Virus record (IMG/VR): IMGVR_UViG_3300020411_003161
Coordinates: 1-64,000 of that record
DNA from: a virus
DNA length: 64,000 nt
Direction: 5' to 3' (one strand)
Every line of letters begins with the position of its first letter. Position 1 is the stretch's first letter. The notes beneath the pieces are model-generated. The model was not told where the DNA came from. It saw only the letters and a program-made list of their open reading frames with translations, and ran no database searches. This document shows positions 8,820 through 41,471 of the stretch, piece after piece. Both the position numbers and the translations under genes were made by a program.

Positions 8820-11800
8820 CTTCCAAATGTCATCATACCAGTTATTTGATTAACTGGAGCAAATGCTCCTGTAAATTTGTAAGTTTTACCATTATATTTA
8901 AAAACTATACCCTCTGATGGTATTATAGCATCCAACCCACCTATAGCATTCAACCTATCCAATTGAACTTTTAGTTTACTTAATTTATTTAAATCACCAC
9001 CACTTCGTATCGTAGATATTGCAGCTTTTACTTTTGCTCTAATACTTTGTATCGACTTATCTGGATTTACTGCTAACCAACCCTCTACATTTTTCATTAT
9101 CTCAGCACCAACACCAAAAAATAATTCCTCAAATGGTTTCATATTATCTTTGACCATCTTAGAATGATCCATTTTATCTGTAGTTAATACCCAATCTAAA
9201 AACTTTGGGTAGTCTTTAAAATCTTTTTTAATCATTGGTATGGTATATGATTTATCAAAAAATGCCCATCGTTTTGTTAATTTAATCAATATATCATTTG
9301 TTAACTTTGGATTATCGGTTTGTTTAGCACCATTCATAATCCACTCCTGCCAATAATGTTGATGATATAAAGCTAGGGTATCATTATCCTTCAATCCATA
9401 TGTTGATTGTAACTTCTTCAATTGCCCTAAAAACTTATCCTTCATCTTTCCAAAGTCTTGATGTTTAGGAACATTGAGAAAATTTGGTTTCCCAATCTTA
9501 TATTTTTTCTGTATGTTTTGATTTATTTGTTTTATCATTCCAGCTAACATTCTTGCACTATCTTTTGCCTGTCCGACAACTCTTGCACTATCATCATATT
9601 CCAACGCTCCATGAAATATAATTTGAGTAACATCATAATTAATTACATTCTCACTAGCAGGCCACAAAACCTCTAAGTTCATCCATTTATTACCATTACC
9701 GAAAATCTTAACCTGTTGTTTCTTACTTAAAGAACCTATAGCCTTTTGTAAGTCCCTAACAGCAAATACGAAAGCATCTCTTATCTTTCCCCTACCTTTG
9801 AATTTAGATTGAACACCCTTAACACTTAAAGCACTTTTACCACTATTTTTTATATGTCCTTTATTACGAGCAACAATTAATCTCCCATCTCTCCAACTAA
9901 CCATAAGATTTTGCCCATCTAATTTTTCTGTAACTCCATCTTCTCTATTTAATTGTCCACCCAAACCCATAGTGATAATTTTTTTCAAATCACCAAATGT
10001 TAAATCTTTGTCATCAAAAGGATGTGCCATATGTCCGTATGCTCCACCCATTAATAATAACTCCTTTCCGTTTCTTGATTTTTTTGAATTTAATATTTCT
10101 TGATAAACAACTTTTAATCTTCCTTTGTCTATTTCTTTATCTTTATGTAATTTTTCCATTTCTGGTTTATTAATCACAAGTTTTGGTTTTTCGCCCGGTT
10201 TATTACTACCAACAGTCGGTACAGCATAATAGGCTTTTCTAAATCCAAACTTTTTAGCAGCTATATGACCTTTACCACCATATTTTTTAACCAAATCTTT
10301 TTCTGCCTCTTCTCTGGAATATCTAATCTTAATACCTCTACGCATCAATCTTTGTTTCCAAATCTTGACTTTCTTAGATACTTCTGCTAGTGACTTCACT
10401 TCTTTTACTATCGACAATTCATCATGTTGTTCATCACCAACTCTTTCAGGTGTTTGTTCTGGCTCTTCAGCATCCATTTGTTTTGCTGTATCTCGACTAT
10501 GTTTCACTACAGATTTTCTTGTATTTGCCAAATCATCAACATACTCATAATCTTGATTAGATAAAATCATATCAATGTGGTCTAACCAACGATTCCACAA
10601 TTCAGTACCTACATAATCTGATAAATTTTGAGCACTTGGTTCATTAATACCAGCTGGACCAAACGAAACAGAATCCACTGGACCTTTTGGATAATCAGTG
10701 TCTTTTCTATAATCTCTGTATTGTGATTTGTAACTATCAAAATCTACTAACATATCAGATAGTTCCCACCCCAATCTTCCGGCCTCAATAGCAGCTCTTT
10801 TTTCATAAGCACTTAAACTTGAAAACATAGAAGGACCGTCATCTACTTCACCCGCAGTATTTAAATTGCTATTTTCAAACAAATGATTATAAAACTCAAA
10901 CAACTTTTTAAACTTATTTGTCATCATATTATACACATTCTTATCGTAATATCCAAATGCCTTTTTAAATAATTTTTGTCGTTTTTTATCATCAAATTCA
11001 GAAGAACCTAATAACTGTCTCATCACAGTTCCACTAACTTCCTTACCAGCAACACTTACACTCTGATGTGGTGCTGTCATAATATATCCGTGCTCTTTGT
11101 GTCCCTTTAAATTACCTTTATTCTTTTTATAATCCTGATAATAAGTTAAACCACCACTCTTCTTTTTTCCACCAATTAATCTACCAGCATCTTTCTTACC
11201 AAAAATATAAATAACTGCAGTTGTTTCTGGGTCGTATTTCTTTAATAAATTATTTGCAACATATGGCATTTTCTCTTGAACTATACGATTCTTTGGTACA
11301 CCCATCTTTATCATATGTTGAACCTTTTCTTTAAAGTTCATTGGATGTCTTGGTGGTTTCTTTATATTCGATGTAGTGATATAAACCTCATCCACTTTAC
11401 TCTCTAACCATTTATAAGTTTTTAAATGATGTGGACCAAATGGTTGAAATCTTCCAGGATATATACCAATTACTTTTTTAATTTTAGATGGAGCTTCATT
11501 TACCCTTTTATAACCACTCATTGAATTGGTTTTATTTTTATTAATCTTTTTTCTTTTTGGGCTACCTTGAATTACACCATCACCACCAACAATTCCCTCT
11601 TCATCAAAAATATTAACTCGACTATGAATCCTAAATGTAGCAGCTTTTCTTCCATTTATTGTTGGCATTCCATGTTTATCTTTACCGATACTTTTGACTT
11701 TCATCTTTTTATTTTTAAATTTACCAACAAGGATAGTATCACCAACTTTAATTGGTATATTGATATCCTCTTTCATTATCTTTTGTTTTTCAATCCATCG

Positions 11801-12526
11801 TTTTCCACGATAATTCTTAATAGGTTTTTTAATGAATTTATTGATTCCCTTTTTCATCAACATATCAAATTTCTTTTGGGCGGCTTCTTCACCCAAAGTT
11901 TTTGAATTATCCACCATCAAAAAGTTCTCATTTCCAAATAATCCTTGAAAAGAAATCTTATTTTTCTGTACATCCTTCCAACTATCTTCTACTAACTCAG
12001 GATTAAGTTTTCTTGGTCTTTCCATATTTCTTTTTTGAGCTACTTCTAAATCCGTATGGACAAAAACCATAAAACAATCATAACCTATCTCTTCTAATTC
12101 TTTCTTTTTCTTTTTTATAGAACCATATTTATGCCCCGTACCATCGATTATCAACCCCAATCGACCATCCATATACATTTTTTTACGGGCTTTTGTTAAT
12201 TCTTTTGCTCTACTTCTCAATCCACTATAATCTTCATAATCAGGATCTGTAAGTTGTCTAAATAGTTCTTCTGGCATATCGTCTAAGTCTGTACCAAATC
12301 CGTATTTCTTTAGCATACGAGTTAATTCTTTATCTTGATTAACAAGCTTCATACCATAAGCAGATACATTGACTTTCTTTGGTATTCCAAATAAACCCTG
12401 AGAGACAAACCCTTTACCACTACCAGGACCACCAGCAAGAAATACTGCTTTTAAAATACCAGGATCGTTGATACCCTCTTCTAAAAAAGGCTTAGTTATT
12501 TCTTCTACTAATTTCTTTAAACTCAT
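8816..12526 (-). CDS. Multidomain P-loop kinase, NMNAT-like adenylyltransferase and RNA-ligase-like protein
   Basis: 1236 residues with at least four modules. Residues about 27-235 are a P-loop kinase: Walker A AGGPGSGKG (31-39), IDGTGH (127-132) and FVHTDLEVAQKRNMER. Residues 258-300 look like a small SH3/KOW-type barrel (VGDTILVGKFKNKKMKVKSIG). Residues about 351-545 are an NMNAT/cytidylyltransferase domain: GIYPGRFQPFGPHH (a HxGH variant) and the late VSGTVMR motif. The C-terminal part is a nucleotidyltransferase-superfamily ligase: EKLDG with Lys868, WMNLEVLW (948-955), EGIVFKY (1205-1211) and KTYKFTG (1214-1220). Candidate protease sites LEE|G (15-18) and VNE|A (342-345) fall at the N-terminus and just before the adenylyltransferase. 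Together with the CCA enzyme it suggests RNA or tRNA end healing, sealing and possibly NAD metabolism. The exact substrates are unknown. Confidence 0.85.
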   Translation of the reverse strand: MSLKKLVEEITKPFLEEGINDPGILKAVFLAGGPGSGKGFVSQGLFGIPKKVNVSAYGMKLVNQDKELTRMLKKYGFGTDLDDMPEELFRQLTDPDYEDYSGLRSRAKELTKARKKMYMDGRLGLIIDGTGHKYGSIKKKKKELEEIGYDCFMVFVHTDLEVAQKRNMERPRKLNPELVEDSWKDVQKNKISFQGLFGNENFLMVDNSKTLGEEAAQKKFDMLMKKGINKFIKKPIKNYRGKRWIEKQKIMKEDINIPIKVGDTILVGKFKNKKMKVKSIGKDKHGMPTINGRKAATFRIHSRVNIFDEEGIVGGDGVIQGSPKRKKINKNKTNSMSGYKRVNEAPSKIKKVIGIYPGRFQPFGPHHLKTYKWLESKVDEVYITTSNIKKPPRHPMNFKEKVQHMIKMGVPKNRIVQEKMPYVANNLLKKYDPETTAVIYIFGKKDAGRLIGGKKKSGGLTYYQDYKKNKGNLKGHKEHGYIMTAPHQSVSVAGKEVSGTVMRQLLGSSEFDDKKRQKLFKKAFGYYDKNVYNMMTNKFKKLFEFYNHLFENSNLNTAGEVDDGPSMFSSLSAYEKRAAIEAGRLGWELSDMLVDFDSYKSQYRDYRKDTDYPKGPVDSVSFGPAGINEPSAQNLSDYVGTELWNRWLDHIDMILSNQDYEYVDDLANTRKSVVKHSRDTAKQMDAEEPEQTPERVGDEQHDELSIVKEVKSLAEVSKKVKIWKQRLMRRGIKIRYSREEAEKDLVKKYGGKGHIAAKKFGFRKAYYAVPTVGSNKPGEKPKLVINKPEMEKLHKDKEIDKGRLKVVYQEILNSKKSRNGKELLLMGGAYGHMAHPFDDKDLTFGDLKKIITMGLGGQLNREDGVTEKLDGQNLMVSWRDGRLIVARNKGHIKNSGKSALSVKGVQSKFKGRGKIRDAFVFAVRDLQKAIGSLSKKQQVKIFGNGNKWMNLEVLWPASENVINYDVTQIIFHGALEYDDSARVVGQAKDSARMLAGMIKQINQNIQKKYKIGKPNFLNVPKHQDFGKMKDKFLGQLKKLQSTYGLKDNDTLALYHQHYWQEWIMNGAKQTDNPKLTNDILIKLTKRWAFFDKSYTIPMIKKDFKDYPKFLDWVLTTDKMDHSKMVKDNMKPFEELFFGVGAEIMKNVEGWLAVNPDKSIQSIRAKVKAAISTIRSGGDLNKLSKLKVQLDRLNAIGGLDAIIPSEGIVFKYNGKTYKFTGAFAPVNQITGMMTFGR

Positions 12527-13274: not shown

Positions 13275-16034
13275 TTAATAAACATGTGCTGAACCACTTA
13301 TACTTCTAACCAATGTAGTGTCTAATGAACCCTCTGTATATTCTTCAGTACAACAAGCATGAGATGCATAACAATCCCATTCCCAACCACCAACATAAAA
13401 TGCTGCAGTTGAAGTACCACCACCAGCAAAGGTTAACCTAGCTGTTCCTAAAGTAGGACCAGTGCTCCAATTAGTTCCATCATAAGTTTCTGTATTATTT
13501 TTATAGGTGTTTGCATATCCTGGATTAGTTATTCCACCAAAGATTACTCCATCATTTTGAGTTCCAGCTCCACCCATATGAGACCTACTAGTAGTTACAT
13601 CTTCACCAGTAGCCCAAGAAGTTCCATCCCATTCTTCTACATTTTCATTACCAGTAGTACCAGTAGAAGTACCACCTGCAGCAACAGCAGCTCCAACAGT
13701 ACCAAAACCAGCTCTCCATCCTTGTGACTGTACCGTATCATTACAAGCAACCCAAGTCGTTCCATCATAACCTATTGTCTCATTATGATCTGCACCATGA
13801 TAACTATTGATATTATATTCTGTCCAATGATCAAAAACCCTGCATGATTTGGCCAAAACACCATTAAATGCAATTATACTATTTTGAGTACCAACCGATG
13901 ACCAAGCAGCTCTGCAGACGGTTGTATTATTCCCCTCTGTCCAACTTGAACCATCATATTCTTCAGAATCATCTGTATTACCATCAACTGCATTGGATGG
14001 ACCTTCATATTGAACTCCACCAAATGCAGTAGCTGCATTTTGTGTACCAGCACCACCCCTAGCAGCATGTTCAGAATTCGTAGAAGTTGGTGATACTGTC
14101 CAAGAAGTTCCATCATAACACTTCACCTCTTCGGATATACAATTATTATTTGTGCTCGGCGCAGGTGGTGGACAATATCCATTGAATAAGATTTGAGCGT
14201 TCTGTGTACCAACGGCTGTACGAAAAACCTTTCCATCACCAATAGTTCCACCAGCACTCCATGTTCTATCAGTGACACTTGAACTTAAATAAGAAAAATT
14301 AATTGTACCTAAAGTTCTGTTAATCCATACTGAACCAGGACCTAATGTATTTATTGCAGGATCAGATGTTAATAATGGAATCTGCATTGGTTCTGTAGAT
14401 TGTAATTTAAATGAACCAGTTACAAGTAAATTACTTGGTGTGGATACATTATCCAACCCAGCACCATCACCATAAAATTTTGTAGATGGCGTTCCGACAC
14501 TTGTAGCCTGCACATTACCAAATGAACCAGTTGAAGCTAATGAACCACTTATATTTCCAAATCCTTTTGACAATTGAGCCGAACCAGATACTGTTCCTGG
14601 AGTAGCTGTTGCAGTTACATTCGTTAGATTAGAACCATCACCAACAAATTTAGATGCACTTATTGTACCTTGAGCTCTAACTCTACCAAATGAAGCAGTT
14701 GATGCTAAGGAAGCACTAACTTTATTATCATTGACTAGTACCTTACTAACTCGCAAATGACTATTTGCATGTACTGAAGTAAATTGACCTGAACCGAATG
14801 AAGCAGTTGAGGCAAGTGATTGACTCACACTACCATTAGTATTACTTGATGCAGATATTATTCCATCTTTAGCAACCAATTCTTTAGTTACTAAACTATT
14901 ACTTAAATTTCTATCCCAATGTTCTGTACAACATCTATAATTAGAATAATCATATTCACTAGGTGTTCCCTCAAATTGAAACCCACCAGCAATTACTGCT
15001 GCATTCATACTAGCATCAGTTGTTGATTTCGCATCAATTCTACCATTAAGGGCATCATTACTAGTGCTCCAAGCCGTTCCATCCCATAAACAAGTAGTTG
15101 CAACATGAGTTGTATCCCAATCTGTAGTACCACCAACCATACCAGTATCATTAACAGTACCAAATGCTGCAGCAGCTATTCTTTTTTCTGAAAAAGCAGT
15201 CTGAGTAGTCCAAGAAGTTCCATCATATTCCTCTACAAAATTACATCTGAGATTTTCACCAGCTATATGTTGTCTGAGGCCATAAGAAGCATAAATTGGC
15301 TCTCCACCACCCATAATTAGTGTTGCATTTTGACTACCACCAGAACTAGCTATACCAACAGCACCACAATTAGAATTAGTTGGAGTATTGTTATAAGCAT
15401 TAAAGACATTCCCAACAGTCCAATCCGTTCCATCATACTCTTCAACACAAGAATAATCATTATAAGTGTAAGTTCCAGCACATGAAGCACCACCCATGGT
15501 TACAGCAGCATTTTGTGTTCCTTGAGTAGTTAATTGAGAACGACCTGTATTCATAGCTTCTTGTGTAGCCCAACTTGAACCATCATATTCTTCTGTACAA
15601 GTTCTAGAAGTATGTGCTGATGGTCCTGGTCTATTTTGGCCAGTTAATCCACCATTAATTAATCCAGCATTTTGAGTTCCAGTACCACCCACTCCAGCTA
15701 TCGCTGTAGTTATTGCACCACCCTCAGCCCAAGCTTCACCATCATATTCATAGGTTTCGTTACATATATTTTCATGATCATCACCACCACCAGCATATAA
15801 AAATGCATTTTGACTACCCATTCCAGCACCTTGCATGCGACCTGGAGACATAGCTTGTCCATTTGTCCAAACACCACTTGCCATACTTGAACTATTAAAA
15901 GAAAAATTTATAGCAAGATTAGATCTGTTTATCCAAACTGAACCATCAGCTATAGCTGGTGTTGTTGGATTAGTATCGTAGGCTTGAACTGCTGCGGCTG
16001 TACTGCCTGTTATGTCTGCTGAAAAAATCTTCAT
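13275..16034 (-). CDS. Kelch-like fibre or adhesin protein
   Basis: 919 residues. Two blocks of kelch-like propeller repeats (about 1-375 and 560-905) share the pattern 'GTQNAxxxxGG ... EEYDGTSWTxG', roughly 45-55 residues per blade. Between them, at about 380-555, lie fibre-type 'SGS-LAST(A/G)SFG' segments as in the neighbouring fibre proteins. Such proteins are expected on the tail or fibre tips and to bind host-surface glycans. Cys residues in pairs (for example NYRCCTEHW and HACCTEEY) stand out. The start codon lies only six bases after an ATATTTAT element and has no visible Shine-Dalgarno sequence. Assignment to a virion fibre is from composition and context; the ligand is unknown. Confidence 0.8.
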   Translation of the reverse strand: MKIFSADITGSTAAAVQAYDTNPTTPAIADGSVWINRSNLAINFSFNSSSMASGVWTNGQAMSPGRMQGAGMGSQNAFLYAGGGDDHENICNETYEYDGEAWAEGGAITTAIAGVGGTGTQNAGLINGGLTGQNRPGPSAHTSRTCTEEYDGSSWATQEAMNTGRSQLTTQGTQNAAVTMGGASCAGTYTYNDYSCVEEYDGTDWTVGNVFNAYNNTPTNSNCGAVGIASSGGSQNATLIMGGGEPIYASYGLRQHIAGENLRCNFVEEYDGTSWTTQTAFSEKRIAAAAFGTVNDTGMVGGTTDWDTTHVATTCLWDGTAWSTSNDALNGRIDAKSTTDASMNAAVIAGGFQFEGTPSEYDYSNYRCCTEHWDRNLSNSLVTKELVAKDGIISASSNTNGSVSQSLASTASFGSGQFTSVHANSHLRVSKVLVNDNKVSASLASTASFGRVRAQGTISASKFVGDGSNLTNVTATATPGTVSGSAQLSKGFGNISGSLASTGSFGNVQATSVGTPSTKFYGDGAGLDNVSTPSNLLVTGSFKLQSTEPMQIPLLTSDPAINTLGPGSVWINRTLGTINFSYLSSSVTDRTWSAGGTIGDGKVFRTAVGTQNAQILFNGYCPPPAPSTNNNCISEEVKCYDGTSWTVSPTSTNSEHAARGGAGTQNAATAFGGVQYEGPSNAVDGNTDDSEEYDGSSWTEGNNTTVCRAAWSSVGTQNSIIAFNGVLAKSCRVFDHWTEYNINSYHGADHNETIGYDGTTWVACNDTVQSQGWRAGFGTVGAAVAAGGTSTGTTGNENVEEWDGTSWATGEDVTTSRSHMGGAGTQNDGVIFGGITNPGYANTYKNNTETYDGTNWSTGPTLGTARLTFAGGGTSTAAFYVGGWEWDCYASHACCTEEYTEGSLDTTLVRSISGSAHVY

Positions 16035-16089: not shown

Positions 16090-17196
16090 TTATGATGATG
16101 TATTTCTTTGTCCCCCACCAAAATTCTCAATATTTCTTATAATAACATCCGGATTAAAAATTTGTTCATAATTTGTATATGGACATTCATGAACATTATT
16201 ATCAAATTGGTAATCAAACATATAACTACCCATCGTCTGATTTGCTAAAATTGGATTTTTAGCAATAATATTATTATGAAAATCATATCCAAAAACTTTA
16301 GGTGATGTCCCAATCCACAAAACTGTTGATGGTAATTGAAATGCCCTAGCAGCATGTTGTAAACAACTGTCATTTAAAACTCTAATCGATGAATTAGCTA
16401 ATATAGAAAATAACTCTATATTTGACATTTGTCCATCAATTCTCTCAACACCATTTAAAATTGGTGATTCTTTTCTACATACATGATAAATGTGAAATTC
16501 ATTTACAAATCTATTTACAATTTGTTGTGAAAGTTCGAATGGTATATCCCTACACCAATTATAAGGATATTTTTGTCCCACAAATGGACCACCATTAGTT
16601 TGTAATACCATCGTTGGTTTTTCCCTTATCCATATTGATGAAAGTTGTTGTTGTGCATAATTTAAAATAACACCCGGCGTCATCTCCTTTTCATTATATT
16701 CCAAATCCATCAAATCACACCAGTTATGTATCAAATGTTGAGATTTTTGTACATGAGCAGTTTGATTATAAGCTTCATGTCTATAAAGTATTGTATCTTT
16801 GTCTCTAATATAATCATCATAAAAATGTGGTGTATTTCCTATCTGATAAAGTTTATCAACAATAGGATGATTAGACCAAACCTCAGGCCAAGAAGCAACT
16901 ATAATTAATTTCCTATCATTATATTTAGACTTTAAAGCAGGTAATAAAGCAGTAGCTGCTACATTCTTTCCCAAACCTCCTTGGACATGCCAAATCAAAT
17001 ATTTGTCTTCAACAACATTATTCCTACTCATATCCTTAGTTTCAATCTCTTTATTAGTAACCTTTTTCACATCTTTATCATAAGAAGACCAACTAGAACC
17101 TGATGATTTTTTTGATGATTTGTCAGCAGAAGACCAAGTAGATTTATCTTTTGAACTAACTTTCTTTACATTTTTAACTTTAGTTTTCTTTTTCAT
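16090..17196 (-). CDS. GT9-like (heptosyltransferase-type) glycosyltransferase
   Basis: 368 residues. After a Lys/Ser/Trp-rich low-complexity N-terminus (1-60, with WSSADKSS and WSSYDK repeats) comes a Rossmann-type start, IWHVQGGLGKNVAATALLPAL (about 68-88), which corresponds to the GGLGD...P.L loop of ADP-heptose:LPS heptosyltransferases. The C-terminal half has the matching NDSCLQHAARA...STVLWIGTSPKVFG donor-site pattern. GT9-type enzymes transfer sugars to LPS or proteins in the cytoplasm. Here the gene is the last of a series with four 2OG-Fe(II) oxygenases (one-base overlap with the preceding gene), so it may glycosylate a hydroxylated phage protein or alter the host surface; this is inference. 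Confidence 0.8.
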   Translation of the reverse strand: MKKKTKVKNVKKVSSKDKSTWSSADKSSKKSSGSSWSSYDKDVKKVTNKEIETKDMSRNNVVEDKYLIWHVQGGLGKNVAATALLPALKSKYNDRKLIIVASWPEVWSNHPIVDKLYQIGNTPHFYDDYIRDKDTILYRHEAYNQTAHVQKSQHLIHNWCDLMDLEYNEKEMTPGVILNYAQQQLSSIWIREKPTMVLQTNGGPFVGQKYPYNWCRDIPFELSQQIVNRFVNEFHIYHVCRKESPILNGVERIDGQMSNIELFSILANSSIRVLNDSCLQHAARAFQLPSTVLWIGTSPKVFGYDFHNNIIAKNPILANQTMGSYMFDYQFDNNVHECPYTNYEQIFNPDVIIRNIENFGGGQRNTSS

Positions 17197-17870
17197 TAAA
17201 CAACCCTATTAAATAGCAATTCTGTTAAACTTCCCTTATCACCCACACCACCCTTTGGAACGATATTCATCGATATACTTTTTCTTACTATATTTGTAGT
17301 ATTCATCGGTACAGAATGTTGTAAATATGATGGAAATAAAATAAACTTTCCCACATCAAAGGATATTGCAAATGAGTTCCAAGTATTTGGATTTTTTTCA
17401 TTAAATTTTTTTTCAATTGAAAAAGTATTAAAAGAAGAAAAAGCCTGTGGTTTATGAAACTCAATAGCGGATGTATCATCCGCCACTCCCCCATAAAAAA
17501 ACACTCCAGATATTATACTATTAGGGTGTGTATGTGCAATATGTGATTGACCTGGCTCCTTATGTGATACCCATGTTTGGGAAAAAATCCATTCATCTAC
17601 ATCATAACCCAAAACTTTATCGTTATATTCTTTAACTTTTTTTAAAATATATTTTTTAAATTCTTTACATTCAGGCTCATCCAATATATAAGTGTTTTTA
17701 GAATGGCTACCATATTGTTTAGTGTTTCCATTACTATCTGGATTATGCTCCTGTTCATCAAAAAAATTACAAATTTGTGCATATTCGTTTGGTAAATTTA
17801 TCAAACGAATGGGTGTTGGATATATATTCATATCATATGAACCACCTTCCCTTATAGTTTCACTCATCAT
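17196..17870 (-). CDS. 2OG-Fe(II) oxygenase, TIGR02466-like
   Basis: 224 residues. The double-stranded beta-helix iron site is visible as HTHPNSIISGVFF (His113, His115) and the distal FPSYLQHSV (His185), the pattern of the TIGR02466 group of putative 2-oxoglutarate/iron-dependent oxygenases. These enzymes hydroxylate proteins or small molecules, consuming O2 and 2-oxoglutarate; the substrate here is unknown. A second Met at residue 14 (MNIYPTP) preceded by a purine-rich stretch could be the true start. It overlaps the upstream oxygenase by four bases and the GT9-like gene by one base. It is one of four such genes in a row and most similar in layout to 17867-18499. Confidence 0.85.
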   Translation of the reverse strand: MMSETIREGGSYDMNIYPTPIRLINLPNEYAQICNFFDEQEHNPDSNGNTKQYGSHSKNTYILDEPECKEFKKYILKKVKEYNDKVLGYDVDEWIFSQTWVSHKEPGQSHIAHTHPNSIISGVFFYGGVADDTSAIEFHKPQAFSSFNTFSIEKKFNEKNPNTWNSFAISFDVGKFILFPSYLQHSVPMNTTNIVRKSISMNIVPKGGVGDKGSLTELLFNRVV

Positions 17871-18499
17871 CTTTTACCTATTCTTTCTTTTGCTGGTTTC
17901 CTACTGGGTGGTATACAAAAATTTATAGATAATACAACTCTAGTCTCATCACTAAGATTTTGTGTAACAGAGTGTTGTAACCACGATGGAAAAATTAGAA
18001 GTAATCCTTCCTTAGCCTTAAAACTTCGATTTAAAGCTGTATACTCACTAGTACCCATCATGTCAGTAAAATAATATTCTCCATGATCATCTCTATGCAA
18101 AACTATATCCCCCCCATTTTCTGGAGCTTTTATATAATACGCACAAGACAAAAAACTTCCCATATGATGATGTGTTTGATTATAATCATATTTCTTATTA
18201 GTTATAAACCAATAGTTTCCGATGTGGAGATTATCAATACCAGTATATTTTGAACAATAATCATTTACAAACTCAGTACAATCACTCAACAATTCCACAA
18301 AACAATCAGGAGGTGTATCCCCTTCCTCATATGGATGAGAATGCCAACCACCAATATTTGAACGGCGAACACCAGCTGGATCCTGATTCTCTCTATCATA
18401 AACAAATTTTAATATAGATTCATTATCTATACCAGTTATTTGTGTCTCCCATACATATGTGGGAAATACAATATGATCTTTTACATGAAATTCTAACAT
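17867..18499 (-). CDS. 2OG-Fe(II) oxygenase, TIGR02466-like
   Basis: 210 residues with the same layout as the next gene: an NYW...KKYDYNQTHHHMGSFLSCAYYI-type block (His110-His112), an acidic GGDIVLHRDDHG loop and the distal LLIFPSWLQHSV (His176), followed by TRVVLSINF. The sequence is clearly diverged from its neighbour, so the pair is an old duplication or two independent acquisitions. It starts at a TAATG overlap with the preceding hydroxylase. The expected activity is iron- and 2-oxoglutarate-dependent hydroxylation in the host cytoplasm; the substrate cannot be read from sequence. Confidence 0.85.
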   Translation of the reverse strand: MLEFHVKDHIVFPTYVWETQITGIDNESILKFVYDRENQDPAGVRRSNIGGWHSHPYEEGDTPPDCFVELLSDCTEFVNDYCSKYTGIDNLHIGNYWFITNKKYDYNQTHHHMGSFLSCAYYIKAPENGGDIVLHRDDHGEYYFTDMMGTSEYTALNRSFKAKEGLLLIFPSWLQHSVTQNLSDETRVVLSINFCIPPSRKPAKERIGKR

Positions 18500-19113
18500 T
18501 ATCTAAACGGTTTATTACTACCTGTCCAAAAAACTAAAGCTTTCCTCTCCCCACTTTTTATTGGTGTAACTCTATGCATAAAAAAAGATGGAAATATCAA
18601 CACATCACCTTTTTCCCTTGGAAAATTTATAAAACCATTTTGCCCACCATACCAACATTGAAAGTCACCACCCTCATAATCATCTGGATCACTTAATTGT
18701 ACTGTAGTAGCTAACTTTCTTCGATTTACATTACCATAACCTATATCCATATGCCAATCTAAATGTCCACTATCTGTAGGATATATCACATAATGTAATT
18801 GATCTGTCACTTTATCTATATCAAATTGAAATAAATTATCATTAGCCTCTAATACCATTTTAAATAAAACTTCATATATCCATTTACTATCATCCTGATA
18901 TGGAACATAAGCAATATCCCTATTATTAGTTCTTTCTGTATCCGTTTCGTCACCATAACCAGTCCTTCCTTTTGAAAATGGATATCTACCATTATAAATC
19001 ATAGAATGAGTCTTTTCAATCATCTCATCAGTAAATGCATTTTTGAAATAATAAAAATCATTAAAATTACATTTTGGTTCTAAATCTAAAGTAGGAAATT
19101 CAAATATCTTCAT
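18499..19113 (-). CDS. Prolyl-4-hydroxylase-type (PKHD) 2OG-Fe(II) oxygenase
   Basis: 204 residues from the ATG at 19113, which has AAGGA five bases upstream; the longer start at 19131 has no ribosome binding site. The facial triad is textbook: HMD (His121, Asp123) in SGHLDWHMDIGYG and the distal His180 in LIFPSFFMHRV, with the 2-oxoglutarate-binding Arg190/Lys191 in GERKALVFW. The segment EGGDFQCWYGG is typical of PKHD-type hydroxylases. It would hydroxylate a prolyl or similar residue, or a small molecule. It overlaps the upstream oxygenase by 14 bases. Of the four oxygenases here this has the most canonical HxD...H site. Confidence 0.9.
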   Translation of the reverse strand: MKIFEFPTLDLEPKCNFNDFYYFKNAFTDEMIEKTHSMIYNGRYPFSKGRTGYGDETDTERTNNRDIAYVPYQDDSKWIYEVLFKMVLEANDNLFQFDIDKVTDQLHYVIYPTDSGHLDWHMDIGYGNVNRRKLATTVQLSDPDDYEGGDFQCWYGGQNGFINFPREKGDVLIFPSFFMHRVTPIKSGERKALVFWTGSNKPFR

Positions 19114-19819
19114 TCTTATCCTTAACCTCATATAAAGGATGATACTTATCCATCATCCCAATTGCACTAAGTTCGAATGTATCATCTTTATATGCTCCCG
19201 TTTCATCATCAACGATTTTAGAATAAAGTGGTTCAATAAATTGATACCATCCTGTTAGAATATATTTTGTTTCATTTGGTGCTACAATTCCCCTATGGAC
19301 ATGTGTAAAATCTGCTGGCCATATACAAAGTTTTCCAGCTTCAGCTCTTTCAAAATGTTGTTGATAAAAAAATTCTGTCTCACCACCTATTTCAACATCA
19401 TTTAAATATATCATCCACGCATGCGTTCTAGGAAAAAATTGATTACTAGCTCTCTCACAATGCATTATTTTATAACCACCACCAGGTTTGTATCTTTGCA
19501 TATTAAACATTAATGACAGACCTATCTCATCTATATTATCCATAGCGAGATAATAATATCTTTCATAATCTCTTAATCCATCTTGCAAACATGGTACTAT
19601 ATTTTCATTCAAATAAGGACCAAAATCTTCATCTTCTAAAAATTTAGGTGAAAAAGTTATATCAGTAGAAGATTTTATATTCTCATCTTTAACTGTCACT
19701 CCATCAGTACCAAAAACACCATCTATATGTAACTCAGTTCTTTTTTCAAATAAGTTTATAAATGAATTACATACATCTTTAGATAGTGCATTTTTACGAA
19801 CATGTATGAATGATGTCAA
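19100..19819 (-). CDS. 2OG-Fe(II) oxygenase, P4H-like
   Basis: 239 residues. The core reads YKPGGGYKIMHCERAS (His120, Glu122), then HAWMIYLNDVEIGGETEFFY and KLCIWPADFTHVHRG (His173 or His175), with Lys185 in ETKYILTGW as the likely 2-oxoglutarate ligand. The first iron ligand pair is HxE rather than the usual HxD; both carboxylates are used in this superfamily. It is the first of the four oxygenases in transcription order and begins four bases after the 238-residue helical protein. The substrate is unknown. Confidence 0.85.
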   Translation of the reverse strand: MTSFIHVRKNALSKDVCNSFINLFEKRTELHIDGVFGTDGVTVKDENIKSSTDITFSPKFLEDEDFGPYLNENIVPCLQDGLRDYERYYYLAMDNIDEIGLSLMFNMQRYKPGGGYKIMHCERASNQFFPRTHAWMIYLNDVEIGGETEFFYQQHFERAEAGKLCIWPADFTHVHRGIVAPNETKYILTGWYQFIEPLYSKIVDDETGAYKDDTFELSAIGMMDKYHPLYEVKDKNEDI

Positions 19820-19823
19820 TTTA

Positions 19824-20540
19824 CTACTCTTTTATTTTTTTTACTTCCCCACCAGTAAGTTTAGGTCTGTCATCATCAAAACTTTTTAACTTTTTACCAT
19901 CTTCGGTACTAAGTCTCTGTAGTGTCTGTAAAGGACCTGCCGCATTTAATACCTCTGATGGTTCAGAATGTTCTGTTAAGGCTCTAACACGATTTTCCAA
20001 TCTATGTGCATATGAAACTGCCTGATGGTCGTTCACATCTTCTGTATTAAATGAACCATCGTCAAGCTCTGCTTTTATTTTTGACCACAATGATAACTCT
20101 CTAACCCTATCTGTAGCAGTTTGCATCATATTAGCCCTAGCCCAAGATGCTTCATCTAATGATATTTGAAGTTCTTCAACTGCCATATCATCACCATCAT
20201 CCATAGCCTTTTCCATCTGTTGTGCTAATCTTCTTTCCGTTAATGAGTGTCTTCTTAAATCAAAAGACAATCCTAAAAGAGAATCAAACATAGAACTCAT
20301 CTCCCTAACAGATTGCCAATACTTTGAAGCAGGTGTTGGATGTTTAGCATCATTCAATACAGATATTCTCATCTCTGTTTCTGTACGGAAGATTTGTTTT
20401 TTCTTCCAATTACCAGCTAACTCATCCCTTATAGCATATACAGCCTTTGAATCTTCCTCATTTAACTCAGCCAAAATAGGTTTTAAATCATCTGTAGCCG
20501 CAATTAGAGAAACATCATGTTTTTTATCTTTTTCTGACAT
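19824..20540 (-). CDS. Helical protein upstream of oxygenase cluster, unknown function
   Basis: 238 residues, acidic and almost entirely predicted alpha-helical, with long amphipathic segments (for example ERRLAQQMEKAMDDGDDMAVEEL and ATDRVRELSLWSKIKAEL). It carries no cysteine and no membrane segment. The N-terminus (MSEKDKKHDVSLIAATDDLK) and C-terminus (LTGGEVKKIKE) are charged. It is the first gene of the oxygenase series, four bases before the next gene. I do not recognise the family; a virion structural or chaperone role is possible given the region. Confidence 0.7.
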   Translation of the reverse strand: MSEKDKKHDVSLIAATDDLKPILAELNEEDSKAVYAIRDELAGNWKKKQIFRTETEMRISVLNDAKHPTPASKYWQSVREMSSMFDSLLGLSFDLRRHSLTERRLAQQMEKAMDDGDDMAVEELQISLDEASWARANMMQTATDRVRELSLWSKIKAELDDGSFNTEDVNDHQAVSYAHRLENRVRALTEHSEPSEVLNAAGPLQTLQRLSTEDGKKLKSFDDDRPKLTGGEVKKIKE

Positions 20541-20602: not shown

Positions 20603-20923
20603 TTAAGGTAAATTTGCATAAACTTCTAAATCTGAACCAAATACTGGATGATCTATTCTATTTCCACTTTCGTCAATAGAAGAAGATACGCTTTCTAAAA
20701 CACGCATCCTACTACCAGTTTCATCAACTAGTGTAGCATCACAAAGAGCTTGTGCTTCCTCTTTTGTCTTCTCTACAGCACCAACACGTGCCACCCAAGC
20801 TGTATGATCGTGTTCAGTAGTAAATACACCACCTGGATGTTCAGCTATATGACCAGCAGCTGAATCAGCATGGGTTATAAATCCCTTTCCAGTGTTTGTA
20901 GCTAAATAATATTTAATAGCCAT
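20603..20923 (-). CDS. Small protein, unknown function
   Basis: 106 residues from MAIKYYLA. I chose the ATG at 20923 because GGAG lies at the right distance upstream; a longer TTG-initiated reading would place that site inside the gene. The sequence has an ATNTGKGFITHADSAAGHIAEH segment and an acidic, serine-rich C-terminal half. The gene has its own ATATTTAT element. It sits between the 1700-residue fibre and the oxygenase series. No motif is recognised. Confidence 0.65.
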   Translation of the reverse strand: MAIKYYLATNTGKGFITHADSAAGHIAEHPGGVFTTEHDHTAWVARVGAVEKTKEEAQALCDATLVDETGSRMRVLESVSSSIDESGNRIDHPVFGSDLEVYANLP

Positions 20924-20952
20924 TAGTTTCTCCAAAAAATAAGTTGTTTCCT

Positions 20953-20960
20953 ATAAATAT
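20953..20960 (-). promoter_or_regulatory. ATATTTAT element upstream of 20923
   Basis: The minus strand reads ACTTATATTTATAGGAAAC, 29 bases before the ATG at 20923 and upstream of its GGAG. The extended match TTATATTTATA is shared with the sites before 12526, 16034 and 27933. Confidence 0.5.
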
Positions 20961-20974: not shown

Positions 20975-23900
20975 TTACGATTTTTTTTCTAATTTTTCAA
21001 GTCTTTTATGAAGTTGTATGATGTAAAGTGACATCTCTTCAATCTTTTCTAATAACAACATATCCCTATCACCCATACTTAATTGTTTCCATTCTTCTAT
21101 AGCATTCATATCAGGAACATTTGGTAAATGTTTGGATTGTGATATATGTACATCTAATTCAGAAATTGATTTCAATTCATATTCTGGTTCAAATACATAG
21201 TCAGGTACACTTAACTTCGTACCACCATCATAAAAACCATCTTGAACATCCACCCTACCAAAAGAACCAGTTGATGTTAATGAACCACTAAGATTACCAC
21301 CCATAGAGAATATAGCTCTACCAGCAGTAGCCGCTGAAAATGTTACTGTTGCAGTATCTAAAGTATCAGCTTTAATACTTGTTGGTATAATTACTTCATC
21401 AGAATCATCATAAACCGTTACATTCGGATACTTACTATTTAATGAATGTGTTATAACCCAATTAGTAGAATCACCTGATTGATGATGTACATGACTACCA
21501 TCTGTAGAAATTCGTGTGACAGTACCAGTTGTTCCACCTGAATTTATAACTGCATATCCAGAAGTTGCTGAAGAAAATCCTATTGTTGTTTTATTAGCAT
21601 CATCAGCGGTTATAGAAGTTGGAATCACAACTTGATGTGAATCATCATAAACAGTTACAGCATTATGTTTAGTCCCCAATGAATGAGTTATTGCCCAACT
21701 TGTAGAATCCCCTGCCTGTGTGAATGTATAACTTCCACTATTAGTTCCACTTCCACCGCCACCACCAGATGAAGCAAAGGTTATAGAATCACCACCAGCA
21801 CTTGTGGTGAGTGTCATATTGGAACCAGCAACTAATGTCAAAGTATCAGTAGCAGAATCAGCAACTACATCGGATTGACCAGAAACAGATATTGTTTTAA
21901 ATGCATTTGAAGCACCACCACCACCGCCACCAGCAGCTAATGAAGCAGATGTAAAATTACCACCACCAACCATAATGTGACCAAATGAGCCAGTTGAAAC
22001 TGATGAACCACTCACGCCACCACCAACAACTTTAACAAGACTTGAACTTAACTCACCTTTCCAAGATCCTGAAACTTGAGCAGCTGAAGGACCACTTCCA
22101 CCACCACCACCTGCTGCGAGTGAAGCAGATGTGAAGTTTCCACCACCAACTTTAAGATGAGCAAATGAACCAGTTGAGGTTGCTGAACCACTTATATCAC
22201 CTTTAAATTCAGCATCATATCCATTAACTTTTCCATGAACATCTAAATTTTGATAAATTATTGCATCACCACCAATTCCAGTCTTACCTATAATATCAAT
22301 AGAAGATGTCTGATGTGCTGATGGACCACCATTCCAAGAATATTGATTTATTCTCTCATTACCATAATCCAAACCAAATAATCTAGTACCTTCTGGATTT
22401 CCCCATACTTTAATGAGACCAGACATATTAGTATTTTTACCAGTATAAGCAGCTGTACTAAATTTCCAAGGTGTAGATAATTTCCACTCATGTAAATCTT
22501 TAGCATTCTTATCAAATAAATAAGCGAATCTACCATCAGGCCTAAAGAAAATATCAGAATGTTCTGTACCACCATCACCTGATACACTTGTTGTTGATGT
22601 TACACTTATTGTTGAAACATCCCATGCTGTGGTCATTCCCAATTCAAGTACAGAATCATTTTCTCCAATTTGATATAGAGCTGAACCATCTGGTTTAGCA
22701 GTTATACCTTGTTGTGAACTACCCTGTAAGGTTGCATTTTGAACATAAGTTAATGTTGTTATATCCCAAGGTTTGGTTAAATTGTATTCATTATATTTGC
22801 TGTTATCCGTATCCATGGTTATCAGCTTCGTACCATCTGGAGAAAATACCATAGCCCTATGTAAACTACCTTGTGAAGAAATATCTTTTGAACCATGAAG
22901 GGTTCTACTACCTATATCCCAAGATCCAGATAAAGAATATTGTGCTATAGAATCTGCTAAATCTCCACTACCAATTAAACTGACATAAACATTTCTACCA
23001 TCTGGTGAAGCGGTGATTCCCCAACCATCACCCCACTCATCACTAACACCACCATCCTGCATATATTTATCCAAAGATACAGTAGATAAATCCCAATCTC
23101 TCGTAATAACCTGTGTCTCTAAATCACTATCTATTATTTTTACACCACCCTTACCAAAGGAAGCCGATGAGGCAAGCGAACCACTAAATAAAGTAGCAGC
23201 ACCAGTTTTCCACGATGTATCATCAGAACCACCACCACCACCGCCACCAGCAGCAAGGGAAGCTGAAGTGAAGTTACCACCCCCGACCATAAGATGACCG
23301 AATGAACCAGTTGAAGTTAATGAACTACTAACATTACCCGTTGCAGTAATGGTTGTAAACGAACCTGCGGCTTTTGTAGAACCACCGATTACTGTATTGT
23401 CTATCGTACCACCATCGATATCAGGTGTGTTTATATCAGGACTTGTTAAAGTCTTATTAGTAAGGGTATCCGTCGTTGTCCTACCAACTATCGTATCGGT
23501 TGTGGCAGGTAGGGTTAGTGTCACATTACCTTCGAAGGCCGAATGGGCTGGTGCTTTTAATGAAGCATAATGAGCATTACTACTTTCACAATAAAGTCTA
23601 ATCTCTGATTGTGCGCCATTATTTTTTAAATCAATAATACCACCATTAACACCTAAATTGCCAGCAGTTTGTAATCTACCAAACGAACCAGTTGAAGTTA
23701 ATGAACTACTAACATTTCCTGTTGCAGTTATTGCACCAGTAACACCTAATGTTGAACCATCAAAAGTAAGATTAGCTTCACCATTTAAAGCATCAGCCGA
23801 TGAAAATGTTGCTATTCTATTATTTGAACCATTTGCAACAGCAGAAACAGCTCCGCCACCACCACCACCGGAACCAAATCCTGCAGCTGCAACAGATGCT

Positions 23901-26077
23901 GAAATATTTGCATAGTGTCCAAATGAAGCAGTTGAAGCGGAACTACCACTAATCATTCCACTACCACTTATAATAATAGGATCAGCATAAGCACCAATTT
24001 TTACAATATTATCACTAAATGCTTCTATAACAGGTAAGCCAGATACTAAGTTAGCACTAAAAACACTACCCGACATCTCATCACTTACAGAAAACAATCT
24101 CCCATTAGTACCATCTACAGTGAATATATTTGAACCACTTCCTATTATATCCATACTTCCACTTAAACCAGCAGAACCTGTGAATGGAAAACCAGTTCCA
24201 CTTCCACCACCAGCCAATGACGCTGATGTGAAGTTACCACCCCCGACCATAAGATGACCGAATGAACCAGTAGAAGCGACTGAGCCACTCACGTTTCCAG
24301 CAAAGTTTGTGTCTTTTGCGATTTCTACTTTTGTAGTAGAACCATCTAAAGTTATATACGCAGTAGTTCCACCACTTCCATCATCCGTACTTAATATAAT
24401 ATCCTTATCGTTGGCATAATTAATTAATTGTATATTACCAGTGGTTTCAAGTATTTGAAGATTAGTTCCAGTATGTTTTATGCTCCCGTCATTATCAGAA
24501 CCAAGGGATATTTTATTACCATCAATTAATGTAATTCCCCCACCATCACCTTCTATTCTACCGAATGAACCAGTTGAAGCAGCTGAACCACTTACTCTAG
24601 TTACATCATCTATCGTACCACCATTAATGTCAGGACTTGTTAAAGTTTTATTAGTAAGAGTATCTGTAGATGAAATTGTTACTAAATTAACCTCTGAATC
24701 TTTTAATCCACCCATCCATCTATTTTCACTAACATCCCATAGTAATGAACCAGTCTGACTACCAGTGGCATCTCTTACATATATTCCAGCATCACTAGTG
24801 GCTGAACCAGCAATTTCTATTATCCTATCACCAATATTTAAAGTAGTTGAGTTGATGGATGTGGTTGTACCAGTTACAGTTAAATTTCCACTAACAGTAA
24901 CATTATCTACAGTTAATGTATCTGAACTTGGATTAAATTTAAAAGTATTACCAGAATCAGTCCGCATTGTATGATGACCACTTAGATAACTTCCTATAAA
25001 TGGTATAGCATAATCTGCATCAGTAGATGAATGAGTGTTTTGTACTTTTGAAGCACTATTAGCAGTAGTTACAGTGCCAACAATATTTGATACAGTTAAT
25101 GTATCTGAATCTGGATTAAATTTAAAATTATTACTAGAATCAGTAAACATTTTACGATGACCACTTAAATAACTTGATAAAAATGGTACAGCATAATCTG
25201 TATCAGTAGATGTATGAGTGTTTTGTACTTTTGAAGCACTATGAGCATTTGGTATCGTAGCACCTGCAATATTTGATACAGTTAATGTATCTGAATCTGG
25301 ATTGTATTTGAAACTATTACTAGAATCAGTATACATTACCCTATGACCACTTAAATAACTTGATAAAAATGGTATAGCATAATCTGCATCAGTAGCTGTA
25401 TGGGTATTCTGTACCTTTGAAGCACTATTAGCACTCGTTGCAGTACCAACAATATTTGATACAGTTAATGTATCCGAATCTGGATTGTATTTGAAACTAT
25501 TACTAGAATCAGTATATAAAGTATGTGTTCCACTTAGATAACTTCCTATAAATGGTACAGCAAAATCTGTATCAGTAGCTGTATGGGTATTAGATACCTT
25601 AGAAGCGGTTTCGACACTAGCACCACCTGCTGAAGCAAAAGTTATCGTATCACTACCCGCATTTGTAGTGATTGTCATATTGGAACCAGCAGCGAATGTT
25701 AATGTATCTGTTGTTGTGTCTGCTACTACATCGGATTGACCAGAAACAGATATCGTCTTAAATGAAAATTCATTATCCTCTCCACTACCACCACCAGCAG
25801 CTAACGAAGCAGATGTAAAATTACCACCACCAACCATAATGTGACCAAATGAACCAGTTGATGCTGCTGAACCACTAATATTACCTGTTATTTCAATAGA
25901 ACCTGTTGTTTGGGAATTGGTTGTTAGTATGGTTTGAACGGAAGGAGAACCATCGTTCTTTTCGAAATATATTTTACCATCTGCGGTATTTACAGCTATC
26001 TCACCAAGCTGTAAATCAGAAGTTGAAGGTGCTTTCCCAGCAACTGAAGATCGTTTTAATTTAATAACTTGAGCCAT
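20975..26077 (-). CDS. Giant repeat-rich tail-fibre-like protein with C-terminal coiled coil
   Basis: 1700 residues. It begins MAQVIKLKRSS...LQLGEIAVNTADGKIYF, a start common to phage fibre proteins. Residues about 155-390 hold four tandem copies of a 61-62-residue unit (SKVQNTHTATDxDYA ... NPDSDTLTVSNI). Five copies of an STGSFGHxMVGGGNFTSASL unit with glycine runs are spread along the protein. Around 1060-1260 lies a propeller-like section (FSPDGTKLITM, FRPDGRFAYLF, KPDGSALYQ). Two copies of an 'ITHSLxxKxxxVTVYDDS' domain come near the C-terminus. The final 60 residues (SKHLPNVPDM...LLLEKIEEMSLYIIQLHKRLEKLEKKS) form a coiled coil that may be a trimerisation or chaperone end. This is probably a host-recognition fibre. 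Confidence 0.85.
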   Translation of the reverse strand: MAQVIKLKRSSVAGKAPSTSDLQLGEIAVNTADGKIYFEKNDGSPSVQTILTTNSQTTGSIEITGNISGSAASTGSFGHIMVGGGNFTSASLAAGGGSGEDNEFSFKTISVSGQSDVVADTTTDTLTFAAGSNMTITTNAGSDTITFASAGGASVETASKVSNTHTATDTDFAVPFIGSYLSGTHTLYTDSSNSFKYNPDSDTLTVSNIVGTATSANSASKVQNTHTATDADYAIPFLSSYLSGHRVMYTDSSNSFKYNPDSDTLTVSNIAGATIPNAHSASKVQNTHTSTDTDYAVPFLSSYLSGHRKMFTDSSNNFKFNPDSDTLTVSNIVGTVTTANSASKVQNTHSSTDADYAIPFIGSYLSGHHTMRTDSGNTFKFNPSSDTLTVDNVTVSGNLTVTGTTTSINSTTLNIGDRIIEIAGSATSDAGIYVRDATGSQTGSLLWDVSENRWMGGLKDSEVNLVTISSTDTLTNKTLTSPDINGGTIDDVTRVSGSAASTGSFGRIEGDGGGITLIDGNKISLGSDNDGSIKHTGTNLQILETTGNIQLINYANDKDIILSTDDGSGGTTAYITLDGSTTKVEIAKDTNFAGNVSGSVASTGSFGHLMVGGGNFTSASLAGGGSGTGFPFTGSAGLSGSMDIIGSGSNIFTVDGTNGRLFSVSDEMSGSVFSANLVSGLPVIEAFSDNIVKIGAYADPIIISGSGMISGSSASTASFGHYANISASVAAAGFGSGGGGGGAVSAVANGSNNRIATFSSADALNGEANLTFDGSTLGVTGAITATGNVSSSLTSTGSFGRLQTAGNLGVNGGIIDLKNNGAQSEIRLYCESSNAHYASLKAPAHSAFEGNVTLTLPATTDTIVGRTTTDTLTNKTLTSPDINTPDIDGGTIDNTVIGGSTKAAGSFTTITATGNVSSSLTSTGSFGHLMVGGGNFTSASLAAGGGGGGGSDDTSWKTGAATLFSGSLASSASFGKGGVKIIDSDLETQVITRDWDLSTVSLDKYMQDGGVSDEWGDGWGITASPDGRNVYVSLIGSGDLADSIAQYSLSGSWDIGSRTLHGSKDISSQGSLHRAMVFSPDGTKLITMDTDNSKYNEYNLTKPWDITTLTYVQNATLQGSSQQGITAKPDGSALYQIGENDSVLELGMTTAWDVSTISVTSTTSVSGDGGTEHSDIFFRPDGRFAYLFDKNAKDLHEWKLSTPWKFSTAAYTGKNTNMSGLIKVWGNPEGTRLFGLDYGNERINQYSWNGGPSAHQTSSIDIIGKTGIGGDAIIYQNLDVHGKVNGYDAEFKGDISGSATSTGSFAHLKVGGGNFTSASLAAGGGGGSGPSAAQVSGSWKGELSSSLVKVVGGGVSGSSVSTGSFGHIMVGGGNFTSASLAAGGGGGGASNAFKTISVSGQSDVVADSATDTLTLVAGSNMTLTTSAGGDSITFASSGGGGGSGTNSGSYTFTQAGDSTSWAITHSLGTKHNAVTVYDDSHQVVIPTSITADDANKTTIGFSSATSGYAVINSGGTTGTVTRISTDGSHVHHQSGDSTNWVITHSLNSKYPNVTVYDDSDEVIIPTSIKADTLDTATVTFSAATAGRAIFSMGGNLSGSLTSTGSFGRVDVQDGFYDGGTKLSVPDYVFEPEYELKSISELDVHISQSKHLPNVPDMNAIEEWKQLSMGDRDMLLLEKIEEMSLYIIQLHKRLEKLEKKS
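23268..23311. repeat. 44-base exact direct repeat, copy 1
   Basis: A 44-base stretch starting gtgaagttaccac and ending aatgaaccagt is identical to 24228-24271. Both encode the STGSFGHLMVGGGNFTS segment of the 1700-residue fibre. Synonymous identity over this length suggests recent duplication or gene conversion. Confidence 0.8.
24228..24271. repeat. 44-base exact direct repeat, copy 2
   Basis: Second copy of the 44-base stretch found at 23268-23311, 960 bases away and in the same reading frame, so recombination between them would delete or duplicate exactly 320 codons without a frameshift. Confidence 0.8.
24908..25612 (-). repeat. Tandem 183-186-base coding repeats in 1700-residue fibre
   Basis: Four consecutive units encode about 61-62 residues each, recognisable by the recurring 'cagttaatgtatctgaa' stretch at a spacing of 183 to 186 bases. 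The peptide pattern is SKVQNTHT(A/S)(T/S)DxDYAxPF ... LTVSNI. End coordinates are approximate. Confidence 0.75.
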
Positions 26078-27933: not shown

Positions 27934-27967
27934 AATTGATTCCCATTGAGAGTAAATTTACTCATCT

Positions 27968-27975
27968 ATAAATAT
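27968..27975 (-). promoter_or_regulatory. ATATTTAT element upstream of 27933
   Basis: The minus strand reads GATTTATATTTATAGATGAG, 34 bases before the ATG at 27933 in a 60-base gap between fibre genes. Confidence 0.5.
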
Positions 27976-41420: not shown

Positions 41421-41471
41421 TATCGTTCTCCATTATGACTTTTAATTACGCATGGTTATAAATACTCATTA

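Follow-up and report, generated by a model that had tools for sequence, protein, structure and literature searches.

The 64,000-nucleotide stretch of DNA analysed here (the window; positions 1 to 64,000 of the IMG/VR virus record IMGVR_UViG_3300020411_003161) comes from a virus of aquatic bacteria and carries on its minus strand four different genes for 2-oxoglutarate (2OG)-Fe(II) oxygenases, OX1 to OX4, followed by one gene for a glycosyltransferase-like protein, GT. We consider it moderately probable that the five genes form the catalytic core of a cassette that is expressed late and whose products would tailor the adjacent kelch-type fibre proteins. All five open reading frames (ORFs) of the original prediction were found in place, and their coordinates confirmed that the oxygenase genes overlap head to tail, by 14 bases between OX1 and OX2 (ATG at 19113), one base between OX2 and OX3 and four between OX3 and OX4, with a further one-base overlap leading from OX4 into GT. 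In order of transcription the region reads FIB1700, g110, g238, OX1, OX2, OX3, OX4, GT, FIB919 and endolysin, and the cassette is indeed embedded among fibre genes, with FIB1700 upstream and FIB919 downstream. This arrangement is not due to chance, because many related viral contigs show the same gene order. The start codon of OX1 is TTG, a choice backed by the aligned N-termini of its relatives. The five core genes are the following:

OX1: 19100..19819, minus strand, PF13640 2OG-Fe(II) oxygenase with an HxE...H triad and a predicted prolyl-hydroxylase fold
OX2: 18499..19113 (alternative start 19131), minus strand, PF13640 oxygenase with an HxD...H triad, relative of PiuC/YbiX (PKHD-type)
OX3: 17867..18499, minus strand, PF13759/TIGR02466 oxygenase with HxH...H
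OX4: 17196..17870, minus strand, PF13759/TIGR02466 oxygenase with HxH...H
GT: 16090..17196, minus strand, glycosyltransferase-like protein of predicted GT9 fold (GT-B)

Conservation of the Cassette in Related Viral Contigs

Scans of aquatic viral contigs seeded with GT yielded 13 loci and then the best 80 of 350 matching; the 90 GT loci analysed (13 + 77), some of which lie on the same contigs, were grouped into 40 clusters at 90% identity. Partners were counted within 6.5 kb of GT in the 27 clusters whose GT is flanked on each side by at least 3 kb, and the 13 clusters with shorter flanks were left out of these neighbourhood counts. An oxygenase was found near GT in 21 of the 27 clusters, so that the gene neighbourhood is conserved in related phages, as the original prediction required. 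A sulfotransferase of the 3'-phosphoadenosine 5'-phosphosulfate (PAPS) type was found in 20 clusters, and an oxygenase and/or a sulfotransferase in all 27. An adenosine 5'-phosphosulfate (APS) kinase-like gene was present in 11 clusters, a flavin halogenase in 3 and a window-like fibre gene in 19, the latter count being a lower bound that rests on similarity to the fibres of the window. The joint probability of this neighbourhood (log10 of −12) assumes independent records and was not used as a measure of significance, because some of the records are near-identical phages.

The conserved order is g110-g238-OX1-OX2-OX3-(extra OX4)-OX4-GT; one typical locus reads g110-g238-OX1-OX2-OX3-OX4-OX4-GT-sulfotransferase, and another group has g110-g238-OX1-OX3-OX4-sulfotransferase, several FIB919-like genes and then GT. 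The extra OX4 copy is present in loci L003 to L006 and missing in the window and in its nearest relative, L002. Directly upstream of GT we found OX4 or OX3 in 25 of the 40 clusters, a FIB919-like gene in 6, a sulfotransferase in 4 and another gene in 4 (none was available in 1). When GT stands without any oxygenase within 6.5 kb, as in 6 of the 27 clusters, sulfotransferase and GT stay together. Some loci add an FkbM methyltransferase or further glycosyltransferases beside GT, and L058 holds a natural FkbM-sulfotransferase fusion. The partner domains were confirmed by Pfam (sulfotransferase PF13469, APS kinase PF01583, halogenase PF04820); for instance, the L018 sulfotransferase matched PF13469 at 7.2e-16, and its P-loop residues P12, R13, G15, S16 and T17 are invariant over 9 members.

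As a control within genomes, the record of the window and 16 longer records were searched whole, tallying by hand and merging overlapping matches. The 17 records contain 41 oxygenase genes, of which 38 are no more than 7 kb from GT; the three distant ones are in G009 (two) and G004 (one), and 7 records have no oxygenase. A sulfotransferase is present in 13 records, one in each, always within about 5.5 kb of GT; none was found in the record of the window, G001, G003 and G009.

We also observed genes of the tryptophan-halogenase family inside the oxygenase cassette, at L006:3323-4822, L012:5788-7254 and L051:4232-5707 (PF04820 was tested for L006 and L051).

Families, Active Sites and Lineages of the Four Oxygenases

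All four oxygenases scored above the Pfam cut-off, which is 27 bits for each of the two families: OX1 (30.9 bits, 5.3e-7) and OX2 (50.9 bits, 3.3e-13) against PF13640, OX3 (75.6 bits, 4.3e-21) and OX4 (64.9 bits, 9.6e-18) against PF13759. OX3 and OX4 also exceeded the TIGR02466 cut-off of 62.5, with 86.3 and 72.3 bits, and match the solved, uncharacterised structures 3bvc/2rg4. OX1 matched PHROG phrog_61 at 1.3e-37 and, in a profile search, bacterial P4H structures at 2e-8; the profile search with OX2 matched the PKHD hydroxylase PiuC at 3.3e-15, and OX2 falls under the NCBIfam PRK05467 cut-offs.

The superfamily is recognised by an HxD/E...H iron triad together with a basic 2OG residue, the classical motif being HxD. 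From the aligned relatives, the ligands and basic residue are H120/E122/H175 and K185 in OX1, H121/D123/H180 and R190 in OX2, H110/H112/H176 and R187 in OX3, and H113/H115/H185 and R196 in OX4. Across the alignments, little or no variation was seen at these predicted iron ligands or at the basic residue close to the distal His; the broader OX3 and OX4 sets include partial sequences, one row being without some of these columns. The iron ligands named by the original prediction are therefore all present and conserved, except that its HHH reading of OX3 had to be narrowed: the middle residue, H111, is D or N in aligned relatives, which makes H110/H112 the ligand pair, an HxH as in OX4 and in 3bvc/2rg4. 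Thus, OX1 (HxE) and OX2 (HxD) carry the classical triad, and OX3 and OX4 have HxH...H in its place. Since 3bvc and 2rg4 carry HxH at the aligned position, we regard it as a family feature and, given also their TIGR02466 scores, we assigned OX3 and OX4 to TIGR02466 and not to the classical-triad enzymes.

OX1 was the oxygenase chosen for modelling, and its model (pLDDT 81.3) shows the double-stranded beta-helix fold. The best Foldseek match of this model is the viral collagen prolyl hydroxylase PBCV-1 vCPH (5c5t; VIA Z 18.7), and VIA Z reached 20.0 for both 4iw3 (P. putida P4H) and 6f0w (Trichoplax PHD). OX1 thus models as a prolyl-hydroxylase-type enzyme by fold, although sharing a fold proves no function; compared with vCPH and the bacterial P4H/PHD enzymes it has 16–22% identity and HxE, and the window holds no collagen repeats. 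The structural matches listed for OX1 are prolyl hydroxylases acting on peptides or proteins, which favours a protein substrate.

Aligned pairwise, OX1 to OX4 share 14–27% identity. In trees built from 23 of the 40 cluster representatives, separate clades were obtained for OX3 (support 98/92), OX4 with the extra copy (100/100), the extra OX4 copy itself (100/100) and OX1 (99/97, a clade that also takes in one protein of Pelagibacter phage HTVC008M on a long branch), and the OX2 forks were less well supported. By their sequences, the four are old, distinct enzymes and not fresh duplicates and, since they form separate old lineages, they are probably not redundant.

PHROGs named ferrochelatase and endonuclease V match OX1 and OX2 across the oxygenase domain and are possibly misnamed. 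In fact, no such Pfam domain was found at E 0.01 in the proteins annotated "ferrochelatase" or "DNA endonuclease V", namely HTVC008M gp068 (L045:8563-9204), Mosig_00059 and Mosig_00058 (L044:5503-6785), and we dropped these roles for OX1 and OX2. The possible misnaming bears on the ferrochelatase-oxygenase pairing published in a part of PMC9599517.

The Glycosyltransferase-like Protein

The predicted structure of GT (pLDDT 75.6, pTM 0.72) has the GT-B fold of GT9 enzymes, with VIA Z of 22.2 (3tov), 20.1 (TibC, 4rb4), 20.0 (WaaF, 1psw) and 18.8 to GT9 entries; three chloroplast NDH-subunit chains (Z 17.6–17.9) rank below this group, and later matches are at 12.3. An N-terminal Ser/Lys-rich extension of about 60 residues is mostly of low confidence in the model. 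Invariant residues are G73, G74, G76 and K77, and D276, S277 and H281, the latter forming a D-S-x-x-x-H motif shared with the GT9 heptosyltransferases and with TibC, a protein O-heptosyltransferase of adhesins. On the other hand, GT differs from these enzymes in sequence (11–14% identity, the comparison being made by fold): it scored 14.3 bits against Pfam GT9 (PF01075), under the cut-off of 22, and the profile search of PDB sequences with GT found no glycosyltransferase. As the cut-off was missed, we call GT a GT9-fold protein and do not file it as a GT9 member, so that of the original description as a GT9-like, heptosyltransferase-type enzyme it is the predicted fold that stands.

Fibre Neighbours and a Putative Late-Promoter Element

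The genes and the element that surround the five core genes are the following:

g238: 19824..20540, minus strand, highly conserved protein, first large gene of the cassette
g110: 20603..20935, minus strand, small conserved protein encoded at the start of the unit, in an order kept in related loci
TATTTATA: 20952..20959, minus strand, putative late-promoter element upstream of g110
FIB919: 13275..16034, minus strand, kelch-type beta-propeller fibre-like protein directly downstream of GT
FIB1700: 20975..26077, minus strand, long repeat-rich fibre-like protein directly upstream of the cassette

FIB919 matched the solved kelch protein 9tsn by phmmer (2.1e-6) and contains 10 motif units of the YDG..W type, with no Pfam match above cut-off. 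No Pfam family matched FIB1700, which has internal sequence repeats; proteins similar to it flank the cassette in some relatives. The mean column identity of g238 is 63% over 15 sequences, and its PHROG and PDB matches are only weak.

Counting the T4 late motif TATAAATA, which gave 18 matches on both strands against 12.9 expected, led us to the reverse-strand motif TATTTATA, which we take to be a variant of the T4 late promoter. Of the 15 intergenic gaps of the window, 9 contain the exact motif on the coding strand (for example at 20952-20959, 27967-27974 and 41457-41464), compared with a mean of 0.68 and a maximum of 4 in 2000 shuffles; the motif also precedes g110 in 10 of 22 related loci examined, where shuffling predicts 0.56. 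Sigma-70-type promoters and terminators showed no excess over shuffles in the region. By its distribution, TATTTATA is likely a late-promoter element that differs from that of T4; if it is such a variant, the cassette would share one late unit with the virion genes.

Two ideas on the substrate in the window were rejected or set aside. Collagen was dropped, as none of the window ORFs has a run of at least 6 Gly-X-Y triplets; long runs occur in several relatives, with at least 8 triplets in 10 of the 40 GT-cluster representatives. Tyrosine sulfation at the EEYDG motifs of FIB919 was set aside, such motifs being common in kelch-like phage proteins and the window record having no sulfotransferase. 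We also observed a collagen-like protein with 228 Gly-X-Y triplets in a run (L117:1-5331; GTN/GTS at the start), which is Thr-rich, a possible glycan acceptor, and sits just before a sulfotransferase-GT-APS kinase set.

Occurrence in Bacterial Contigs and Cultured Phages

The scan of bacterial genomes returned 6 loci (L129 to L134), all from metagenome-assembled genomes (MAGs). L129, probably a phage contig that was binned with a Flavobacteriaceae MAG, carries the cassette in its phage form (g238-OX1-OX3-GT-sulfotransferase-fibres). GT and sulfotransferase occur together in L130, L132 and L133; in L130 and L132, both Bacteroidetes MAG contigs, the large gene upstream of GT encodes a beta-propeller of the NHL type that bears a Por secretion tail; an APS kinase is found in L130 as well. 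By eye, L131 adjoins collagen-like and tail-sheath-like genes, and no cassette partner was found at the L134 locus. These phages would share the GT-sulfotransferase pair with Bacteroidetes, in which it may decorate secreted propeller proteins.

Only three of 50,697 phage records matched GT: two are Pelagibacter podoviruses and the third is a single-cell virus. One of the podoviruses, HTVC112P, was examined, and there the annotated, distant GT (26%) directly follows the tail fibre gene. Moreover, in the cultured freshwater Synechococcus phage S-SRM01, gp334-gp349 bring together a tail fibre, RCC1 propellers, a 2OG oxygenase, a sulfotransferase and a glycosyltransferase. Beta-propeller neighbours were thus observed in three settings: kelch-type in the phages described here, RCC1-type in S-SRM01 and NHL-type in the Bacteroidetes MAG contigs.

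Proposed Role of the Cassette and Alternative Explanations

According to the explanation that we favour, transcription would start at TATTTATA before g110, together with the virion genes, and each of the four oxygenases, OX1 to OX4, would have its own target residue or position for hydroxylation in the freshly synthesised beta-propeller protein FIB919 and possibly in FIB1700. The GT9-fold enzyme would add a sugar to hydroxyl groups of that fibre protein and, in relatives, the sulfotransferase would sulfate either this sugar or the hydroxyl of an amino acid. Such tailoring would probably serve to give the receptor-binding fibres an altered binding surface, stability or charge. Fibre proteins seem to us a more likely target than host sugars or small molecules, as all three settings have propeller-type surface proteins in common as neighbours and OX1 has a protein-hydroxylase fold. 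Moreover, we tentatively propose, as an idea that is more doubtful than probable, a modular, phage-encoded post-translational assembly line producing hydroxylated, halogenated and sulfo-glycosylated beta-propeller receptor-binding fibres, which would provide a chemically diversified adhesion surface outside the genetic code. Its parts would be up to six oxygenases, a flavin halogenase, the GT9-fold enzyme, an FkbM methyltransferase and a sulfotransferase accompanied by a kinase that makes its PAPS; no genome seen holds all of them at once. DNA modification was set aside as the role of the cassette, in which no DNA-modifying partner was noticed.

Several observations weigh against fibre tailoring. 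No sulfotransferase was found in the record of the window itself, a 64-kb fragment; GT scored below the Pfam GT9 cut-off; and kelch motifs like those of FIB919 recur in a second window protein (33216-38480), far from the cassette. The oxygenase arrays of HTVC008M and of Synechococcus phage S-CREM1 adjoin neck, baseplate or other genes, and the sulfotransferase of S-SCSM1 does not lie in a fibre region. The adjacency to fibres could also reflect the collection of cargo genes in such regions. Moreover, glycosyltransferases in this region of pelagimyophages are read, in a part of PMC7029224, as modifiers of the host O-chain.

This last reading belongs to an alternative in which the cassette acts late in infection on glycans of the host surface (sugars of the lipopolysaccharide (LPS), capsule or S-layer), and would thereby prevent superinfection or the re-adsorption of progeny, or allow virions to be released. 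It is in keeping with the fold matches of GT to WaaC/WaaF, GT9 enzymes being typically LPS heptosyltransferases, and with the sulfotransferases, FkbM methyltransferases and extra glycosyltransferases beside GT in some loci. We regard it as unlikely since OX1 resembles protein hydroxylases, the Bacteroidetes GT-sulfotransferase pair adjoins secreted beta-propeller proteins in two contigs and, to our knowledge, 2OG oxygenase arrays are not usual in LPS pathways. Even less probable, in our opinion, is that the oxygenases are metabolic genes, for 2-oxoglutarate or small-molecule chemistry, which share the fibre region by chance with a separate GT-sulfotransferase pair. Cyanophage 2OG oxygenases are interpreted as metabolic in a section of PMC9602691, and oxygenase arrays without GT as well as GT-sulfotransferase pairs without oxygenases do occur; however, the clustering of oxygenase genes near GT in the 17 records, the gene overlaps, the conserved order and the keeping together of separate old lineages all argue against a chance meeting.

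The same two incomplete arrangements weaken a narrower form of fibre tailoring, the strictly ordered pathway of the original prediction, with GT glycosylating a hydroxyl introduced by the oxygenases. Such an order would explain the one-base overlap of OX4 and GT and the position of GT directly after OX4 or OX3 in most clusters, and it has a parallel in the hydroxylysine glycosylation by collagen lysyl hydroxylase/glycosyltransferases. But GT is kept without nearby oxygenases in the 6 clusters mentioned above, it follows fibre genes in part of the relatives, and the window has no collagen-like repeats. We therefore find strict order unlikely and not required, and GT can probably do without the hydroxyls that the oxygenases introduce. 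The broader proposal of virion-fibre tailoring retains the conserved neighbourhood, the fibre setting, the OX1 fold, the GT fold (that of a family including TibC) and the sulfotransferase in relatives.

Other Features of the Window

The window has no close nucleotide relatives among isolates; its terminase is nearest to those of Microcystis phage Mel-JY01 (54%) and Flavobacterium phage immuto (53.5%). Elsewhere in the window, a 1070-aa ORF at 56934-60146 is an SbcCD fusion (SbcD-type phosphoesterase and SbcC-type ATPase), and a 1236-aa multidomain protein at 8816-12526 has a P-loop kinase-like N-terminus and a cytidylyltransferase-like middle. Tandem paralogues at 29383-30803 (two genes) and 45162-47430 (three genes) match PHROGs 8510/24074, partly named virion structural protein, and a 3080-aa ORF at 47433-56675 has only weak PHROG matches.

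Significance and Comparison with Known Systems

Aquatic T4-like phages commonly carry such oxygenases, which are unexplained and usually interpreted as metabolic. A cassette linking them with GT, sulfotransferase and APS kinase, and propeller-type fibres offers a testable alternative, the enzymatic decoration of virions. If this is true, the receptor-binding proteins of aquatic phages differ from what their genes alone predict, with a bearing on host range, charge, stability and the prediction of fibre structures. S-SRM01 is a cultured test case, and virion mass-spectrometry data for S-CREM1 are described in PMC9964418.

Oxygenases in tandem are by themselves nothing new, and four in a row are not as exceptional as originally thought: HTVC008M has four and S-CREM1 a longer run. 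HTVC008M gp069-gp072, S-CREM1 ORF72-80 and S-SCSM1 (24 genes) have the same families as the cassette, PF13640 and PF13759/TIGR02466, and the tandem arrays of T4-like cyanophages and pelagiphages share its head-to-tail overlaps. Unlike the cassette, the array stretches viewed in HTVC008M and S-CREM1 have no annotated glycosyltransferase or sulfotransferase. Passages of PMC9602691 and PMC9964418 describe large phage oxygenase sets, and one of PMC9599517 reports that in pelagipodoviruses the oxygenases are co-located but non-adjacent. What is new is the wider conserved cassette, since no description of the combination of oxygenases, glycosyltransferase, sulfotransferase and fibre was found in the open-licence literature. 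There, one paper that brings together phage, sulfotransferase and halogenase appears to be a survey of Xanthomonas genomes, and none was found to join prolyl hydroxylase with glycosylated phage tail fibres and a glycosyltransferase.

We know of no oxygenases or sulfotransferases in mycobacteriophage virion glycosylation. Like here, phage enzymes are proposed in that system, in a portion of PMC11256854, to glycosylate a virion protein. Another parallel is S-SRM01, in whose paper the terms mass spectrometry, 2OG and sulfotransferase are absent. Its gp334-gp349 differ from the cassette in having one annotated oxygenase and a GT9-like fold match for the TPR protein only (rank 16), and resemble it in gathering fibre, propellers, oxygenase, sulfotransferase and glycosyltransferase in one stretch.

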